Shown here in pieces: positions 7,083-63,941 of a stretch of DNA of 64,000 nt; positions within the stretch are counted from its first letter, which is position 1, and every line of letters begins with the position of its first letter. Position numbers and translations under genes: made by a program. Source of the DNA: Nostoc sp. PCC 7524 (lineage in GTDB: Bacteria; Cyanobacteriota; Cyanobacteriia; Cyanobacteriales; Nostocaceae); contig NC_019684.1 in NCBI RefSeq assembly GCF_000316645.1, positions 5,120,001 to 5,184,000 on the forward strand. Direction: 5' to 3'. The notes below the pieces were generated by a model. The model was given only the letters and a program-made list of their open reading frames with translations. It searched no databases and was not told the origin of the DNA.

Positions 7083-7295
7083 TTATTTTTTCGCCTTAGC
7101 CTTTGGTGCTTCTACCTCAAGCAGTTCATCTGGAGCAAAGTTGTTGGTGTTGATGCCAGAATAATTGACCTTATCAAAGCGGACAATTACGGAGTATTTA
7201 ATGCCACTTTGGTCTACAGAAGCAACAGTTCCGACATCTTGGAACCAGTAGGATTCTGGGCGAAGAATACGTACTTTAGAACCACGTTGAACCAT
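7083..7295 (-). CDS. psaE: Photosystem I subunit IV (PsaE)
   Basis: A stromal-side PSI subunit of about 8 kDa that helps dock ferredoxin and supports cyclic electron flow. The 70-residue product begins [19 protein letters not shown], continues GTVASVD and [14 protein letters not shown], and ends in a Lys/Ala tail. This is the SH3-like fold of PsaE with the usual length. GGGAAG lies about 8 bases upstream of the ATG. It stands alone with a 347-base leader region. Confidence 0.97.
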
Positions 7296-10837: not shown

Positions 10838-12580
10838 ATGAGCTACCACATGATCGGTAAAGTACTGCAAGCGCGCTACCAAATTGTCCAAAGCCTGGGC
10901 GCAGGGGTATTTGGACAGACATACATCGCTGTGGATATTAATCATCCACACAGCCCCAAATGTGTTGTTAAACAACTCAAAGTTAGCAGTTTGCATCCTA
11001 GCTACCTAGATACCATCAGATTACGTTTTTTAACTGAAACCGAAACCCTCAAACGTTTGGGAACTCACTCCCAAATCCCTGAGTTCATCGCTTGTTTTGA
11101 AGAGAATGAGCGTTTCTATTTGGTGCAGGAATATATTGCAGGCCATTCCTTGACGGCGGAACTGCCCATTAATCAACAGTGGGGGTGTTTGTGGAATGAG
11201 GATGAGGTGATCGCATTTTTAGAAGATACTTTGGGAATTTTAGAATTTGTTCACTCCCAAGGTGTAATCCATTGTGATATTAAACCAGAAAATATTATTA
11301 GGCGTGCTGTTAATGGTAAGTTAGTCCTCATTGATTTTGGTTCTATTCAATCAATTAATTTTGGTATGGATGGGGAATTATCCATCTATCAAGCTCCTGC
11401 AACTTCTTTAGGCTATATTCCCCCTGAGCAATTTATTGGTCAAACCCAGCCCAATAGTGATATTTATGCTTTGGGGATGATTGCAATTCAGGCTTTAACA
11501 GGGCTAGAACCGCTACAAGTCAAAGTAGATGCTTATACTAATGAAATTATTTGGCGTTCACCCGATACACAGGTGAGTGATTATCTAGCGGCTATACTGA
11601 GCCAAATGATCCGCTACAATTACCAAGAACGTTTCCAGTCTGCTGCTGAGGTATCGCGTGTCCTCAAGCAAATGGTATGGGAAACTGCCGTCACACCAGT
11701 ACCTCAAATAGAGCTAATTGCAGATAAGCAAATAGAAGCAGATTCAGAGCAATCATCCCCCCTACTCACAGGCATGACAGTAGGAATAGCTGTTAATTCT
11801 TTATTAATGGGGTTGGGAACTTATTCTTTGCTCAATAGTTCTCCAGCATATTCGGAAACAGAAATTTTATATAACGCTACAAAAGAATATCAAGCAGGAG
11901 ATTTGCAACAAGCGATCGCCTTAGCCAAATCAATCCCATCTTACAGTAATGTTTATCCAGATGCTCAAGCGACCATCGAAACTTGGCAACAGCAATGGCA
12001 AACAGCTGCACAACAATATTTAGTAGCTGAAAAAGCTATGTCTGAGGGTAGATGGTCAGATGTACTTAGTGCAGCTAATCAAGTTCCAGATATTTTATAT
12101 TGGCAAGTCAAAGTTAACGATTTAGTTCAACAAGCCAAAATCAATATTGAAGCACAAACAAAAGTTTTATTAGCGAAAGCTTTTACTAAAGCTCAGGCTA
12201 GAGATTTTTCTACAGCATTAGAATATCTGCGGCAAATTCCCAAAGAAAGTTCTGCTGGTGCTTTGGTGCAGAATAAATTAGTTGAATACAGTGAAAAACG
12301 GCAGATTAGAGCCGCCTACTTTTTACATCAAGCCCGCAAGCAGGCATTAGTTGGTAACTTTGATCAAGCGGTAACATTTCTCCGCAAAATTCCCAAAGAT
12401 ACCTCTGTTTACGCTCAGGCTCAAACTAAATTGAATGAGTATAACCAAAAAATCCGCCCACAACCTCAAAGTCAAAACCTAGCCTATAGCGTAATTTCTT
12501 CTACTCAAAAAACACCATCGGTAATGAAGTTGGAAAACGTCAACCCTGATCATCACTTACAAGAAGTAAATATTCAGTAG
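10838..12580 (+). CDS. Serine/threonine protein kinase with membrane anchor and helical repeats
   Basis: A 580-residue eukaryotic-type (Hanks) kinase. The kinase domain spans ~11-285: glycine loop LGAGVFGQTY, lysine in CVVKQLK, catalytic loop VIHCDIKPENII, DFGS metal motif, and PPEQF in place of APE. The catalytic loop has HCD rather than HRD, which is common in non-RD kinases. A single membrane helix follows at ~307-330 (GMTVGIAVNSLLMGLGTYSLL). The outer part (~340-530) holds repeated helical units such as FSTALEYLRQIPKES and FDQAVTFLRKIPKDT, like TPR repeats. It is probably a membrane receptor-type kinase; the signal is unknown. Confidence 0.9.
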   Translation: MSYHMIGKVLQARYQIVQSLGAGVFGQTYIAVDINHPHSPKCVVKQLKVSSLHPSYLDTIRLRFLTETETLKRLGTHSQIPEFIACFEENERFYLVQEYIAGHSLTAELPINQQWGCLWNEDEVIAFLEDTLGILEFVHSQGVIHCDIKPENIIRRAVNGKLVLIDFGSIQSINFGMDGELSIYQAPATSLGYIPPEQFIGQTQPNSDIYALGMIAIQALTGLEPLQVKVDAYTNEIIWRSPDTQVSDYLAAILSQMIRYNYQERFQSAAEVSRVLKQMVWETAVTPVPQIELIADKQIEADSEQSSPLLTGMTVGIAVNSLLMGLGTYSLLNSSPAYSETEILYNATKEYQAGDLQQAIALAKSIPSYSNVYPDAQATIETWQQQWQTAAQQYLVAEKAMSEGRWSDVLSAANQVPDILYWQVKVNDLVQQAKINIEAQTKVLLAKAFTKAQARDFSTALEYLRQIPKESSAGALVQNKLVEYSEKRQIRAAYFLHQARKQALVGNFDQAVTFLRKIPKDTSVYAQAQTKLNEYNQKIRPQPQSQNLAYSVISSTQKTPSVMKLENVNPDHHLQEVNIQ

Positions 12581-23517: not shown

Positions 23518-24648
23518 TTATTCGTTATCATTACCAATATATTTAGCCTTTAATTCCTCTAATTCCCGATCAAGTGCGCTTTGATTAGCAGGGGCATTGG
23601 TTGCGGTTTGTGGCTGAATATTTTGGGGTTTGGGTTTACCTCCAGGTAAAAATTGAGTTTTTAGTTCTTCTAGTTCCAAATCAATTTGACTTTGTGATTT
23701 TGATACCAGTGTTGGGGGCAAGGTAGGTGGCGCTGGATTAATAGTTTTTGTTGGTGTCGATGCTGTTGAAGATATTTGATTGACATCTTGCAAAACTTCC
23801 TCTGCTGTCTGATAGCGTCTCACAGGAATGCTTTTTAGCATTTTGTTGAGAATGCTAGTTAAATTATTGCTGATTGGTGTTGTTAAATATTGCTGCCAAA
23901 CCCAAGTATCGTTATTAACATCATAGGAATCGAAAGGCGATCGCCCAGTTAATAACTTAATACAAGTCGCTCCCAAACTATAAATATCACTAGCAAAAGT
24001 CGCTCTCCCTCTGATTTGTTCTGGAGCAACATATTCAGGTGTACCAATACTGGTACCAGTTTGATTTAAAGCAGTTTGCGTTGCAGATTTAGAAGCACCA
24101 AAATCTACTAAAAATAATTTCTGATCACTGCGACGCAAGATAATATTTTCTGGTTTAATATCCCGATGAATTACTTGTCTCTCATGACAAAATTGCAATA
24201 CTGGCAATAAATCTTTGAGTAATTGCTGAATCTGTGTTTCATTAAAAGCACCTTTATGTGCTAATTCTTCTGCTAAGTTTGCGCCATCAATAAATTCTTG
24301 TACTAAATACTGGCGATCGTCGTAGGTAAAATACGCCAACAGATCGGGAATTTGGGGATGTTGACCTAAACCATCTAATTGTATGGCTTCTTGGTTAAAT
24401 AATTCCACTGCTTTCTGCACAGTGTTCGTGCCTTGGGCTTGGGGGTAAAATTGCTTAATGACACAGGGCGGTTTAGAAGGTTTATCTTCATCCACTGCTA
24501 AGAAAGTTCTGCCAAAACCACCTTGTCCGATGGGTTTAATGGCACGGTAGCGTTCCTTGAGTAGTAACTTAGTACCACAACTCAAGCAAAACTTGACATC
24601 TTGAGGATTTTCTGGCTTGGAACAACGGGGATTAAGGCAATAACTCAT
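23518..24648 (-). CDS. Serine/threonine protein kinase with N-terminal zinc ribbon
   Basis: A 376-residue Hanks-type kinase when started at ATG 24648; GTG 24666 would add six residues. A four-Cys zinc ribbon (C4, C9, C21, C24: YCLNPRCSKP, FCLSCG) precedes the kinase domain (~33-285), which has IGQGGFGRTFLA, CVIKQF, VIHRDIKPENIIL, VDFGASK and GTPEYVAPEQIRG. Catalytic residues are complete. The tail (~295-376) is Pro/Thr-rich with two copies of a helical unit, DLELEELKTQFLPGG and DRELEELKAKYIGND. There is no membrane helix, so it is probably soluble. The substrate is unknown. Confidence 0.92.
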   Translation of the reverse strand: MSYCLNPRCSKPENPQDVKFCLSCGTKLLLKERYRAIKPIGQGGFGRTFLAVDEDKPSKPPCVIKQFYPQAQGTNTVQKAVELFNQEAIQLDGLGQHPQIPDLLAYFTYDDRQYLVQEFIDGANLAEELAHKGAFNETQIQQLLKDLLPVLQFCHERQVIHRDIKPENIILRRSDQKLFLVDFGASKSATQTALNQTGTSIGTPEYVAPEQIRGRATFASDIYSLGATCIKLLTGRSPFDSYDVNNDTWVWQQYLTTPISNNLTSILNKMLKSIPVRRYQTAEEVLQDVNQISSTASTPTKTINPAPPTLPPTLVSKSQSQIDLELEELKTQFLPGGKPKPQNIQPQTATNAPANQSALDRELEELKAKYIGNDNE

Positions 24649-24720
24649 TTGTGGGATGGCGTTCACATCGCTCTGACTGTCTTTATTTTGCCTTGTGCTA
24701 GTTAAGAGTGGTTAAGTTCG

Positions 24721-59870: not shown

Positions 59871-62141
59871 ATGGAAAATGATGCGGCAACGCTCTACTGC
59901 CCAAATGAACTTTGTCGGGCGGCGAACCCCCTGACTCACAAGTTTTGCCAGCGATGCTCCACACCCATACCCAAACGATACTTGTGGGTTGTAGGAGATG
60001 GTTTAGGCGTAGGCAGTCCGGGAGAAATATTAGCCGATCGCTATCTAATCATCAGTAAATCCGTTGTTTTAGATACTAAACCTGGGTTATTACCCCAAGC
60101 GCCAGAGATTGAAAATGTCCAGCACATCAAACCTTATCTCAGACTGATTCCTTATCGCTTACACATCCCGCAGGTTTATGGAGTCCTACCCATCACGGAG
60201 GGACGCATCCGTAGGGAAATTTTACTTTTAGAAAAACCGCCACTATTTACAGACACCGTAGCCCAGCAAGTACATCTATATAGCACCTTAACCGAAGCTT
60301 GGAGTCATGCTAATTCCATGCGCCAACTTAATTGGTTATGGCAAATGGCTCATCTGTGGCAACCTTTAAAAAGTGAAGGTGTTGTCTCTAGCTTACTTGA
60401 CCCTGAGTTATTGCGGGTAGAAGGGTCCTTAGTAAGGTTGTTAGAATTGCGTTTCGATGCGACCACAGCCCTAGAATTACCACAATTAGGTGAATTTTGG
60501 CAGCAACTACGCACCTATGCCAAACCAGCGATCGCGCCATTGGTTGACCAAGTAAGTAATCTGTTAATTCAAGGTGAAATCACCTCACCAGAAGTCTTAA
60601 TTGCAGTTTTAGACAGAGGACTGGCAGATTTAGCCAAATACCAAACATCTACCACTCAAGTTATCACTAAAACTGACACCGGCCCCAGGCGCGAACGTAA
60701 CGAAGATGCCTGTTACCCTGCCAGTGGTAAACTGTTGAGCAAACCACCCCAACCCACAGCCTTAGCCATTGTCTGTGATGGAATTGGTGGTCATGAGGGG
60801 GGAAATGTCGCCTCCAACTTAGCCATTGAAACTATCCAGCAGCAGGTACACCAACTCACCAAAGTCCCTTCTGACCATATAGAACCCTCACTGCTGCTGG
60901 CAGATTTAGAAATGGCTGTAGCCAGCGTCAATGACAAAATCAGTCAGCGTAACGATAGCGAAAATCGCCAAGGCCGCAAACGCATGGGTACAACCATCGT
61001 CATGGCACTGCCAATTGCCCACGAAATGTATATTACCCACGTTGGTGATAGTCGTGCTTACTGGATTACCCGTCACGGTTGTTATCAAGTCACCCTTGAC
61101 GACGATGTAGCTTCACGGGAAGTGAGATTAGGTTATGCCGTTTATCGTGAAGCTGTGCAACAAAGTGGTTCAGGTTCTCTGGTGCAAGCTTTGGGGATGA
61201 GTCCCAGCACTTCATTGCATCCTACAGCCCAGCGATTCATTTGTGACGAAGATACAGTATTTCTCCTCACTACTGATGGTTTAAGTGATTTTGACCGCAT
61301 AGAAGATTACTGGGATACAGAAATTTTACCGGTTCTCACAGGGGAGAATAAATTAGCCAACGTTGCCGATCAATTGATAGAACTGGCTAATACAAAAAAT
61401 GGACATGATAATGTCACGATCGCTTTAGTGCATTATCAAGTGAAATACTCTGAGCCAGAGTCAGCCATTTCCGTAGTAATTCCAGATAGCAACGCCATCA
61501 AAGTCGCATCGACAATCTCAAAAACCACACCACCAACATTATCAGAAGGCAAACCCGACCAGAAAACCAAAGTCATTCCTGTCAACTTAACCAGCAATAT
61601 GACGAAGCTGCCGTTAAGTTTCATCGTACCGTTGATTTTGGTGGCTGCGGCTGGGTTATTTGGATATTGGGTTATGCTCTTGAGAACCCAATTAACTAAC
61701 GCTCCGGTTGTAACACCGACTACGACTATACCAGCAACTAACCCCACACCACAGAGGCGATCGCTCAATAACCTAGCTTCTGAATGGGTGATTCAAACCA
61801 AGACAGAAATTCCTTTGGAAAACCAGACCAGCTTACCACCTGAAACCTTTTTAGAAGTTGAAGATAAAAAGAATTTACCAGAGGCTCAACAAAATTTAGC
61901 CAATGCCGAAGATTATGATGTGTTTTTTAGATTATGCCCTACTAAAAAACTGCCAATCCCATTACCAGGAATTCCGGGAAGACCAATTTCAATTAAATTC
62001 TCACAATTAAAAATCTGGGAACAAGATGGAAAAATAGAGGTTCGGCAAGCGAATGATGATACTCCTTGTAACTCTCCTCCCCTAGACAGCCTATCTCCTA
62101 CACCCAGTAATCCTAGTGACACAGAAACTGGGAATCAATAA
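59871..62141 (+). CDS. PP2C-type protein phosphatase with zinc ribbon and kinase-like N-terminus
   Basis: A 756-residue phosphatase for phospho-Ser/Thr. A zinc ribbon (C10, C15, C26, C29) is followed by ~220 residues resembling a decayed kinase fold (ILADRYLIISKSVVLDTKPG, EILLLEKPPLF, NWLWQMAHLWQPLKSEGVV, VEGSLVRLLEL) with no catalytic loop, an inference. The PP2C domain (~262-525) has RRERNEDACY, the metal site VCDGIGGHEGG (D303), THVGDSRAYWI, LLTTDGLSD and GHDNVTIALV. A membrane helix (~580-602) precedes a Pro/Thr-rich tail. The CHAT-FHA gene follows 213 bases downstream. Confidence 0.9.
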   Translation: MENDAATLYCPNELCRAANPLTHKFCQRCSTPIPKRYLWVVGDGLGVGSPGEILADRYLIISKSVVLDTKPGLLPQAPEIENVQHIKPYLRLIPYRLHIPQVYGVLPITEGRIRREILLLEKPPLFTDTVAQQVHLYSTLTEAWSHANSMRQLNWLWQMAHLWQPLKSEGVVSSLLDPELLRVEGSLVRLLELRFDATTALELPQLGEFWQQLRTYAKPAIAPLVDQVSNLLIQGEITSPEVLIAVLDRGLADLAKYQTSTTQVITKTDTGPRRERNEDACYPASGKLLSKPPQPTALAIVCDGIGGHEGGNVASNLAIETIQQQVHQLTKVPSDHIEPSLLLADLEMAVASVNDKISQRNDSENRQGRKRMGTTIVMALPIAHEMYITHVGDSRAYWITRHGCYQVTLDDDVASREVRLGYAVYREAVQQSGSGSLVQALGMSPSTSLHPTAQRFICDEDTVFLLTTDGLSDFDRIEDYWDTEILPVLTGENKLANVADQLIELANTKNGHDNVTIALVHYQVKYSEPESAISVVIPDSNAIKVASTISKTTPPTLSEGKPDQKTKVIPVNLTSNMTKLPLSFIVPLILVAAAGLFGYWVMLLRTQLTNAPVVTPTTTIPATNPTPQRRSLNNLASEWVIQTKTEIPLENQTSLPPETFLEVEDKKNLPEAQQNLANAEDYDVFFRLCPTKKLPIPLPGIPGRPISIKFSQLKIWEQDGKIEVRQANDDTPCNSPPLDSLSPTPSNPSDTETGNQ

Positions 62142-62354
62142 CTGCTGTAATTCAGTATCTTTAGCCACAGGCAGCATACATACCATACCAAGTGCCTAGA
62201 AATTTTAGTGCAGTAGAAACAAATAATCGATAAACTGGTAAAAACCTGAAATAATACAGATAGTAACCACGCTTAAATTTATAAGATAAAAGTTTTCTGC
62301 AAGGAAACTTATTGGTGGAAATTATCTGTTTTTACCTGTTAGTGTCATCAACCC

Positions 62355-63941
62355 ATGCCATCCCTGAACCTGGCGATCGCCCGTCTCATCAATACAGGCA
62401 ATGATAGTTTCGCCATTTGGGTGGTTAAGGCTCCATATCCCAGTGGCTACGTTTTGCGTGACTGTGTATGGCCTGTTGAACTCACTCAAGTTTGGCAAGA
62501 ATGGCAGCAAATGTTTGCTGGCCATAGTGGTATAAATATTTCCACAGGCTCAACCCATCGCTCAGTTAACCAAGTCCCCATGAATTTAGTCTCACCACCC
62601 TCCGGTCAGGCTACTGGTTATGGCAGTCGGTTGATGCAATATTTAGGGATTAATCTCTGGCGTTGGGTCTTTGAAGGGTCAATTCTTGGTAGTCTAGAGC
62701 GCAGTCGTGGGATAGCGATGGGTCAGAGTACCAGACTGCGCTTTCAGTTGGAAATCCGCGACCCGGATTTAATCGCCCTACCTTGGGAGATTATGCAGCG
62801 AGAACCCGGTCAACCAGCCATGTCCCTCTCGCCCGATTTACTATTTAGCCGCACCACAAGCGAAGTAGAACCACTACCAAATCTACGCACTGATCAAGCT
62901 CTGAAAATCCTCCTGGTGCTGGGATACGATCAAAACCTGCAACTGCAACAAGAAGCCACTATCTTAGAACAGACCTTGTTAAATGGTGGTCAGGTAGGTA
63001 GTTATGGTCAGAGATATGCACCTTGTACAGTTAAAACACTTTTACAACCAACGCCCCAGGAGTTGATTCAAGAGTTAGAAACTAAAGCATATAACGTCTT
63101 TTTCTACGCCGGCCACGGTCTGCCGGCTCCCGATGGCGGATTATTGGTTTTACGCCCAGGAATGAATCTGAATGGCATAGAATTAGCCCAAGTATTAAAC
63201 CGTAGTGCTGTGAAATTGGCAGTTTTTAACGCCTGTTGGGGAGCGCAACCAGCAGCCATTAATCATCAAGCCATTCCCGCCAGTAGCTTGGCAGAAGTTT
63301 TAATTCGTCATGGTGTCCCGGCGGTTTTAGGAATGCGTGATGAAATTGCTGATCATGAAAGTCATAGTTTTATCCAAGTTTTTGCTAAAGCTTTGCGATC
63401 GCGCAAATCAATTGACGAGGCGGTGGCAGAAGCGAGGCAAGAACTGTTAACACTGTATAAATACAATCAACCCGCTTGGACTTTGCCAGTTCTCTATCTC
63501 CATCCCGATTTTGATGGTGAACTGATTAAAAGTGTGGATGAAGGTGTGACAGAACTACCAGATACGGCTATTCCTCACTTCAATTCTTCCGTATCGATGG
63601 CGTGTTTGCGATCGCTTTCCCCTGGTGGTCGTACTTGGTTGTTAAGAAACGGTGTCACTCGTATAGGTCGCACCAGAGACAATGATATCGTCATCCCTGA
63701 ACCCTCTGTTTCTAAGCGACACGCGGAAATTTTTTGCCGCAATACTTTTACAGGTACTACTTATGTGCGAACTTATTACTTACAAGATTTTTCTACCTAC
63801 GGTACAACCTGGTGTTTAGGCGCTAATGGTTGGCAACAAATACTCCGGGAAGAAGTTCCCTTACAATCGGGAATGCAGCTGAAGTTTGGTAGTTCTAGAG
63901 GTGAAACTTGGGAGTTTATTATTGAAGATTCGGAAAGCTGA
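62355..63941 (+). CDS. CHAT protease domain fused to an FHA domain
   Basis: A 528-residue protein. The N-terminal ~190 residues contain a region of unknown fold (DCVWPVELTQVWQEWQQMFA, LEIRDPDLIALPWEIMQ). The caspase-like CHAT domain (~190-390) has the catalytic pair H254 in FYAGHG and C294 in FNACWG, plus LAEVLIRHGVPAVLGMRDEI. A C-terminal FHA domain (~425-525) has IGRTRDNDIVIPEPSVSKRH, the phospho-threonine-binding pattern, and LQDFSTYGTTW. It probably senses a phosphorylated partner and cleaves a target. The upstream PP2C gene suggests phosphorylation control. Confidence 0.9.
   Translation: MPSLNLAIARLINTGNDSFAIWVVKAPYPSGYVLRDCVWPVELTQVWQEWQQMFAGHSGINISTGSTHRSVNQVPMNLVSPPSGQATGYGSRLMQYLGINLWRWVFEGSILGSLERSRGIAMGQSTRLRFQLEIRDPDLIALPWEIMQREPGQPAMSLSPDLLFSRTTSEVEPLPNLRTDQALKILLVLGYDQNLQLQQEATILEQTLLNGGQVGSYGQRYAPCTVKTLLQPTPQELIQELETKAYNVFFYAGHGLPAPDGGLLVLRPGMNLNGIELAQVLNRSAVKLAVFNACWGAQPAAINHQAIPASSLAEVLIRHGVPAVLGMRDEIADHESHSFIQVFAKALRSRKSIDEAVAEARQELLTLYKYNQPAWTLPVLYLHPDFDGELIKSVDEGVTELPDTAIPHFNSSVSMACLRSLSPGGRTWLLRNGVTRIGRTRDNDIVIPEPSVSKRHAEIFCRNTFTGTTYVRTYYLQDFSTYGTTWCLGANGWQQILREEVPLQSGMQLKFGSSRGETWEFIIEDSES

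Follow-up and report, generated by a model that had tools for sequence, protein, structure and literature searches.

A CHAT-FHA protein of Nostoc with an invariant linker threonine and a near-constant partner: a possible phosphorylation-controlled protease locus

The window analyzed here, a stretch of 64,000 nucleotides from Nostoc sp. PCC 7524 (NC_019684.1, 5,120,001-5,184,000, forward strand; features are numbered by window position), contains two neighboring genes separated by 213 bases, one for a membrane-bound PP2C phosphatase and one for a protein that joins a CHAT peptidase domain to an FHA domain (CHAT-FHA). A third gene, ORF226, starts 197 bases after the CHAT-FHA stop codon, just past the window edge. 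ORF226 is the closest partner of CHAT-FHA, and the two genes occur nearly one to one across genomes. A module of CHAT-FHA and ORF226, with the PP2C less tightly attached, is well supported. We read the locus as a phosphorylation-controlled cysteine protease related to HetF, together with its control proteins, and give this reading a probability of roughly 0.4; we infer the proteolytic activity, the phosphorylation, and the substrate from sequence. The genome, 6.7 Mb in size, holds 18 CHAT matches and 44 Ser/Thr kinase matches.

ORF226 occurs with CHAT-FHA almost one to one

Phyletic profiles of all four genes of interest (CHAT-FHA, ORF226, PP2C, and a nearby gene, FHA-PrsW) were counted over the same 244 genomes. 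CHAT-FHA is present in 59 and ORF226 in 61; both are present in 58 and neither in 182. Put another way, ORF226 accompanies 58 of the 59 CHAT-FHA genomes versus 3 of the 185 others. The count of 59 is what is left of 63 matched genomes after removal of four (G033, G045, G135, and G207) in which only the CHAT part matched, at HetF-like identity. The single genome with CHAT-FHA and without ORF226, G237, is a draft of about 300 contigs. In 13 genomes outside the family of the window organism, the two genes are carried on different contigs or lie more than 1 Mb apart; therefore, adjacency alone does not make the correlation. In genera of mixed content, agreement is seen in two (g22 and g34, each having one genome with both genes and two lacking both) and disagreement in three (g15, g25, and g28, in each of which one genome lacks one partner).

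ORF226, a small protein of an undescribed family, has a conserved start at L009:7139, the first possible start being at 7106, and two conserved motifs, YPWNP and ARPxAYAMR. It matches no family in Pfam, NCBIfam, PHROGs, or PADLOC (best E values of 0.05-0.08 in PHROGs and NCBIfam), and a PDB sequence search returned nothing significant (best E, 0.22).

CHAT-FHA and its linker motif

Both domains of CHAT-FHA pass their Pfam gathering cutoffs, CHAT (PF12770) with 68.8 versus 24 bits and FHA (PF00498) with 53.4 versus 20.7 bits. Residue conservation was taken from alignments of 111 CHAT-FHA, 91 PP2C, 98 ORF226, and 83 FHA-PrsW rows. The His-Cys dyad (His254 and Cys294) is invariant in all 111 CHAT-FHA rows. 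In the FHA domain, Arg439 is kept in 108 rows, Ser453 in 110, and His456 in 109, one miss in each case being L150, a sequence cut by a contig end; we take Arg439 and Ser453 to be the Arg and Ser that contact phosphothreonine (pThr). Hydropathy gave no transmembrane helix for this protein. There is one CHAT-FHA per genome among the matches listed, and its second match in its own genome is HetF, which scores 1384 bits against the HetF cutoff of 1200. A PDB search returned FHA chains and one weak CHAT chain; GarA chains, one of them named "Rv1827 pThr 22," are among the solved structures that the FHA end matches weakly (E of ~0.01). The OdhI model also matches weakly, at residues 386-460 (E, 0.0011; 18.8 bits versus a cutoff of 200).

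The two domains are joined by a linker containing the motif TELP, of which Thr399 and Pro402 are invariant in 212 of 212 unique CHAT-FHA sequences. Within a set of 40 sequences sharing less than 80% identity, these are the only invariant columns between residues 389 and 430, and mean identity is 0.51 in the linker versus 0.74 in CHAT and 0.64 in FHA. Acidic residues occupy positions -4 and -3 relative to Thr399 in 30 of these 40 sequences each. Over all 212 rows, Thr399 follows Pro384 of the CHAT domain by 12-19 residues, and the GR motif of FHA lies 35 residues beyond Pro402 in 177, the range being 25-50 once the truncated L150 is set aside. TxxP is missing at the corresponding place from all 17 HetF-type proteins compared; two of them carry one within the 25 residues that follow, the closer lying 2-3 positions off (L257). 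Only the HetF of the same genome passes the HetF cutoff among these 17, the 16 others scoring 525-928. The motif looks like a phosphorylation site placed as the ETTS motif is in OdhI and GarA. A switch at Thr399 is a good hypothesis, in which we infer both its phosphorylation and its binding by FHA.

The PP2C and its kinase-like N terminus

The PP2C protein runs from a 4-Cys zinc ribbon through a region of ~220 residues to the PP2C domain, a variable linker, one transmembrane helix, and a tail. It matches PP2C_2 (PF13672; 42.4 versus 24 bits) and PF00481 (35.3 versus 20.3 bits), and its conserved acidic residues, including D279, D303, D469, D473, and D513, are kept in at least 97% of the 91 rows; we take them to be metal ligands. 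A hydrophobic helix spans about residues 576-608, and all 11 distant orthologues compared have one in the equivalent position. The cytoplasmic linker carries a K-T-Q motif whose threonine, T566, is present in 83 of 91 rows, some of the other rows being possibly misaligned.

The supported reading of the N-terminal region is that of a degenerate, probably catalytically dead kinase of the 4-Cys type. Pfam gave no Pkinase match in this region of the window protein and no kinase among the families shown for ten PP2C relatives (25 of 45 families shown for L225), and a PDB sequence search with the N terminus returned nothing significant (best E, 0.44). In profile-profile comparisons with hhalign against 36 kinase-domain rows from 30 loci of the same genome (P values uncorrected), a set of 53 sequences led by the window protein gave a score of 24.0 (P = 0.013). 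This score was reached by 0 of 150 column shuffles, the best of which scored 21.7; the reversed profile scored 19.6 and two unrelated families 13.5 and 16.8. The 33 deep rows alone gave P = 0.0013 with a probability of 19%, and 15 rows of divergent relatives gave P = 1.2e-5 with a probability of 81%. Two points tell against the kinase reading: the window-led set gives a weak signal (3.4% HHalign probability), and the divergent subset, with its stronger signal, was picked after that set. The register is colinear from the hinge through the catalytic loop to the DFG positions, and the catalytic residues of HRD and DFG have been lost. In a comparison with four 4-Cys kinases, the window-led set aligned over the ribbon only (25 columns; P = 1.5e-8), and the deep and divergent sets aligned over 155 columns (P = 1.3e-8) and 152 columns (P = 1.4e-7), the ribbon raising the score in both. 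A paralogue in the same genome, L219, passes the NCBIfam model 4Cys_prefix_kin (27.7 versus 24), for which the window protein is not listed. Counting this gene and its paralogues, 88 of the 244 genomes have the N-terminal region, which is thus not specific to the protease.

Two relatives differ in layout. The protein at L225:413-3256 (G085) has a C-terminal WD40 repeat region. At L012:6501-7883, the PP2C match ends at residue 464, ~2.1 kb before CHAT-FHA, and the gene may be interrupted.

Conservation of the gene neighborhood

An earlier note, made from the letters of this stretch, had described a zinc-ribbon PP2C with a membrane helix followed by a CHAT-FHA protein with the dyad His254/Cys294, and open reading frames, Pfam, and alignments agree with it. 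It had also described a PP2C N terminus with kinase-like features and no catalytic motifs, a description that the profile comparisons above favor, and had asked whether the two genes stay together and whether a conserved gene lies beyond the window edge. We examined the best 80 of 297 relatives' loci, a set biased to close kin and nearly all named Nostocales. The PP2C gene lies upstream on the same strand in 78 of these (the misses are L081 and L083) and within 1 kb in 75, and ORF226 is found less than 600 bases downstream of CHAT-FHA in all 80. A convergent FHA-PrsW is seen in 74; of the six loci that miss it, three (L031, L035, and L061) sit on contigs ending nearby. Also conserved are ndhM (74/80), a response regulator (67/80), and nitrate genes (54-59/80).

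A second set comprised 31 CHAT-FHA loci outside the family, from 24 genera, drawn from the 244-genome sample; here, neighbor families came from unbiased clustering of all open reading frames of at least 90 aa. ORF226 ranks first (17 loci in 13 genera, 35-517 bases downstream), PP2C second (11 loci in 11 genera, 47-364 bases upstream and always on the same strand), and FHA-PrsW third (8 loci in 8 genera). Deformylase and ndhM reach 5 genera each, and all remaining families reach at most 5. ORF226 is not adjacent in 14 of the 31 loci; a few of the contigs without an adjacent partner end beside CHAT-FHA (L133 and L150). A neighborhood kept across so many genera is more than chance. The adjacency of the pair thus stands, and the expected downstream gene is ORF226. 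The idea that PP2C and CHAT-FHA form the whole unit gives way to one in which ORF226 is the closest partner and FHA-PrsW lies convergent to it.

FHA-PrsW combines an FHA domain (64.8 bits) with a PrsW intramembrane protease domain (131.9 bits). It occurs in 56 of the 244 genomes and in 47 of the 59 that have CHAT-FHA; the co-occurrence of FHA-PrsW and of PP2C with CHAT-FHA is looser than that of ORF226. Before its first predicted helix stands the motif [T/S]QLFP, whose first position is Thr in 79, Ser in 2, and a gap in 2 of 83 rows. Beyond FHA-PrsW lies a nitrate-reductase-associated gene, followed by what we read as nitrate reductase and transport genes. A scan of the locus found 7 promoter-like sites (shuffle mean, 11.4) and 8 terminator-like sites (shuffle mean, 5.3). 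The features are collected in Table 1.

Table 1. Positions of the features discussed (window numbering unless prefixed by L009)
Feature	Position	Strand	Basis
CHAT-FHA protein, 528 aa	62355..63941	+	Pfam
CHAT (caspase/HetF-type) peptidase domain, residues 136-370	62760..63464	+	Pfam
Catalytic His254	63114..63116	+	111/111 rows
Catalytic Cys294	63234..63236	+	111/111 rows
Invariant linker motif T399-E-L-P402, proposed FHA-read phosphorylation site	63549..63560	+	212/212 unique sequences
FHA domain, residues 435-512	63657..63890	+	Pfam
ORF226	L009:7139-7786	+	
PP2C membrane phosphatase with 4-Cys zinc ribbon and kinase-like N terminus, 756 aa	59871..62141	+	Pfam and conservation
4-Cys zinc ribbon (Cys10, Cys15, Cys26, Cys29)	59898..59957	+	each in at least 97% of 91 rows
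Degenerate kinase-like (putative pseudokinase) region, residues ~36-260	59976..60650	+	hhalign
PP2C catalytic domain, residues ~267-520	60669..61430	+	Pfam/NCBIfam matches, conserved acidic residues
Juxtamembrane motif of the K-T566-Q type, linker otherwise variable	61563..61580	+	T566 in 83/91 rows
Transmembrane helix of PP2C	61596..61694	+	hydropathy
FHA-PrsW (FHA domain and PrsW intramembrane protease domain)	L009:8223-9629	-	Pfam scores in text; convergent to ORF226

The two Ser/Thr kinases of the window (10877-11638 and 23788-24549), which the earlier note had mentioned along with the pair, are real, yet they are 2 of the 44 kinase matches of the genome and do not lie near PP2C and CHAT-FHA; we see nothing that connects them to it. 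The second domain belongs to a 4-Cys Ser/Thr kinase (23518-24666, minus strand) with a tail of repeated ELEELKxxFLG-like units. We considered this protein as the cognate kinase through a tail stretch, LKTQFLP, that is like the PP2C motif, and rejected it as unspecific. The stretch looks like part of the helical ELEELKxxFLG repeat. Of the 30 best relatives examined, 21 show the K/R-T-Q/E-hydrophobic pattern, and with the kinase as query, 91 of 244 genomes give a match at an E value of 1e-60; because the tail pattern is this common and so many genomes are matched, the kinase is not specific.

Discussion

Under the reading preferred here, one of the many Ser/Thr kinases of the cell would phosphorylate Thr399 in the interdomain linker. 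FHA would bind pThr399 either in cis, as in OdhI and GarA, or in trans, giving a dimer, and this binding would alter the activity of the His254/Cys294 protease. The neighboring membrane PP2C would remove the phosphate, its putatively dead 4-Cys-type kinase domain acting as a docking or sensing module. ORF226 would be a dedicated partner, most likely a substrate or regulator, with the role of scaffold partner also in play. A fuller version, in which CHAT-FHA is switched on or off by its own pThr in the TELP linker, cleaves ORF226, is reset by the dead-kinase phosphatase, and works beside the membrane-bound FHA-PrsW, two types of protease thus reading the same kinase signal, would amount to a previously undescribed pathway; as a whole, we hold it to be rather unlikely.

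Several observations weigh against a Thr399 switch serving a dedicated module. ORF226 is present without a CHAT-FHA match in G005, G123, and G207. At the G005 locus (L254; G005:C16), ndhM, PP2C, ORF226, FHA-PrsW, and deformylase stand in this order, and the ~0.7-kb gap between PP2C and ORF226 yields no CHAT-FHA match, so ORF226 can persist without the protease. The Fisher P value for the co-occurrence of CHAT-FHA and ORF226, 2.7e-51, ignores phylogeny. The PP2C N-terminal region is found in 30 genomes without CHAT-FHA as well as in 58 of the 59 with it, and 20 of the 31 distant loci lack an adjacent PP2C, although some contigs end nearby. Thr399 stands at a distance of 14 residues from Pro384 in 200 of 212 rows, which makes a structural role possible. 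FHA domains usually carry an Asn in an NGT motif; in CHAT-FHA, this Asn is replaced, residue 482 being Tyr in 94, Phe in 13, and Asn in 2 of 111 rows. Together with the loss of Arg439 in L126 and L143, both of which keep Thr399, this means that Thr399 may not be the FHA ligand. We also considered whether ORF226 itself could be what FHA binds, by way of a conserved pThr in its own sequence; its 98 aligned rows do not support this, as none of its Thr positions reaches 85% conservation.

The earlier note had proposed that FHA docks a separate phosphorylated partner. Conservation of the FHA Arg and Ser fits that proposal, but a likely ligand lies inside CHAT-FHA itself, at Thr399. Docking of another phosphoprotein, either an autophosphorylated kinase or the PP2C through K-T566-Q, with Thr399-Pro402 merely structural, is possible, if on the unlikely side. 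It would draw on the conserved Thr motif in the otherwise variable cytoplasmic linker of PP2C, on the juxtamembrane [T/S]QLFP of FHA-PrsW, on the rows that lose Arg439 and keep Thr399, on the prevailing CHAT-Thr399 spacing, and on OdhI, whose FHA domain serves as a kinase docking site according to an excerpt of PMC8546545. It has to account for Thr399 and Pro402 being the sole invariant columns of a variable linker whose length changes in some rows, and the lack of TxxP at this place in HetF-type proteins makes a role in the CHAT fold itself unlikely. CHAT-FHA could instead be a nonproteolytic scaffold, as HetF may be at the divisome, with ORF226 as a structural partner and phosphorylation controlling assembly. 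HetF, the nearest relative, is described as a divisome component that interacts with FtsI (excerpt of PMC8406250), and a complex would explain the co-occurrence with ORF226 no less well than a protease and its substrate would. Yet the invariance of His254 and Cys294 is not required of a scaffold, and we would bet against this alternative, at long but not extreme odds.

The reading that these genes keep their order through inherited housekeeping synteny, with no function in common, seems improbable. The conservation of ndhM, the response regulator, and the nitrate genes among close relatives speaks for it, as does the persistence of ndhM and peptide deformylase nearby in 5 genera each outside the family. 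There, however, ORF226 and PP2C lie beside CHAT-FHA in more genera than the other families do, and ORF226 co-occurs with CHAT-FHA even where the two are unlinked. A role in antiphage defense or abortive infection, in which the CHAT protease would do the killing, is very improbable. CHAT proteases act in such systems, and the earlier note had pointed to this; a defense role is not supported, however, in view of a PADLOC search without a match for PP2C, CHAT-FHA, NdhM, ORF226, or FHA-PrsW and of a single CHAT-FHA per genome, among the matches listed, at a stable place beside housekeeping genes.

To our knowledge, few cyanobacterial kinases have a known output, against 44 kinase matches in this genome. 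The locus offers one concrete kinase output in the form of a protease; the candidate phosphosite is a single invariant one, and there are candidates for both the phosphatase and the substrate or partner. If the phosphorylation-controlled reading is true, it would provide a bacterial example of a caspase-like protease under phosphothreonine and FHA control, and one related to HetF, which acts in division and heterocyst differentiation. In the openly licensed literature, we recognized no description of the CHAT-FHA/PP2C pair.

Comparison with known systems

An eLife survey (excerpt of PMC7159879) describes linkage of kinase, PP2C, and vWA in actinobacterial systems and lists FHA domains among effectors; the arrangement of CHAT-FHA with PP2C does not appear in that excerpt. 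Like PRK14559 and Stp1, the window PP2C has a PP2C domain with conserved motif residues, and its N-terminal region has homologues in the 88 genomes given above. It falls below both equivalog cutoffs (238.7 versus 374 and 160.9 versus 230) and differs in having a transmembrane helix and the juxtamembrane KTQ motif. With the cyanobacterial 4-Cys prefix Ser/Thr kinases, it shares the same zinc ribbon directly before a kinase-like region, whereas the HRD and DFG catalytic residues are lost and the region is fused to a phosphatase.

CHAT-FHA belongs to the same CHAT branch as HetF (NF045509). In the same genomes, the next matches are to HetF-type proteins, with 31-40% identity mostly over residues ~80-400, and the GH...C dyad is common to both. 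HetF has transmembrane and TPR parts (excerpt of PMC8406250). CHAT-FHA, with 148.2 bits versus the curated cutoff of 1200, has no transmembrane helix and carries the FHA domain and TxxP linker in place of those parts. For OdhI and GarA, intramolecular binding of pThr by the FHA domain was reportedly described by Nott in 2009. Their ETTS motif lies N-terminal to the FHA domain (excerpt of PMC8546545). CHAT-FHA likewise has a conserved Thr motif in an acidic context, N-terminal to FHA in the same chain. It stays below the cutoff of the OdhI model, its motif is TELP rather than ETTS, and the putative switch would govern a protease rather than the inhibition of a dehydrogenase.

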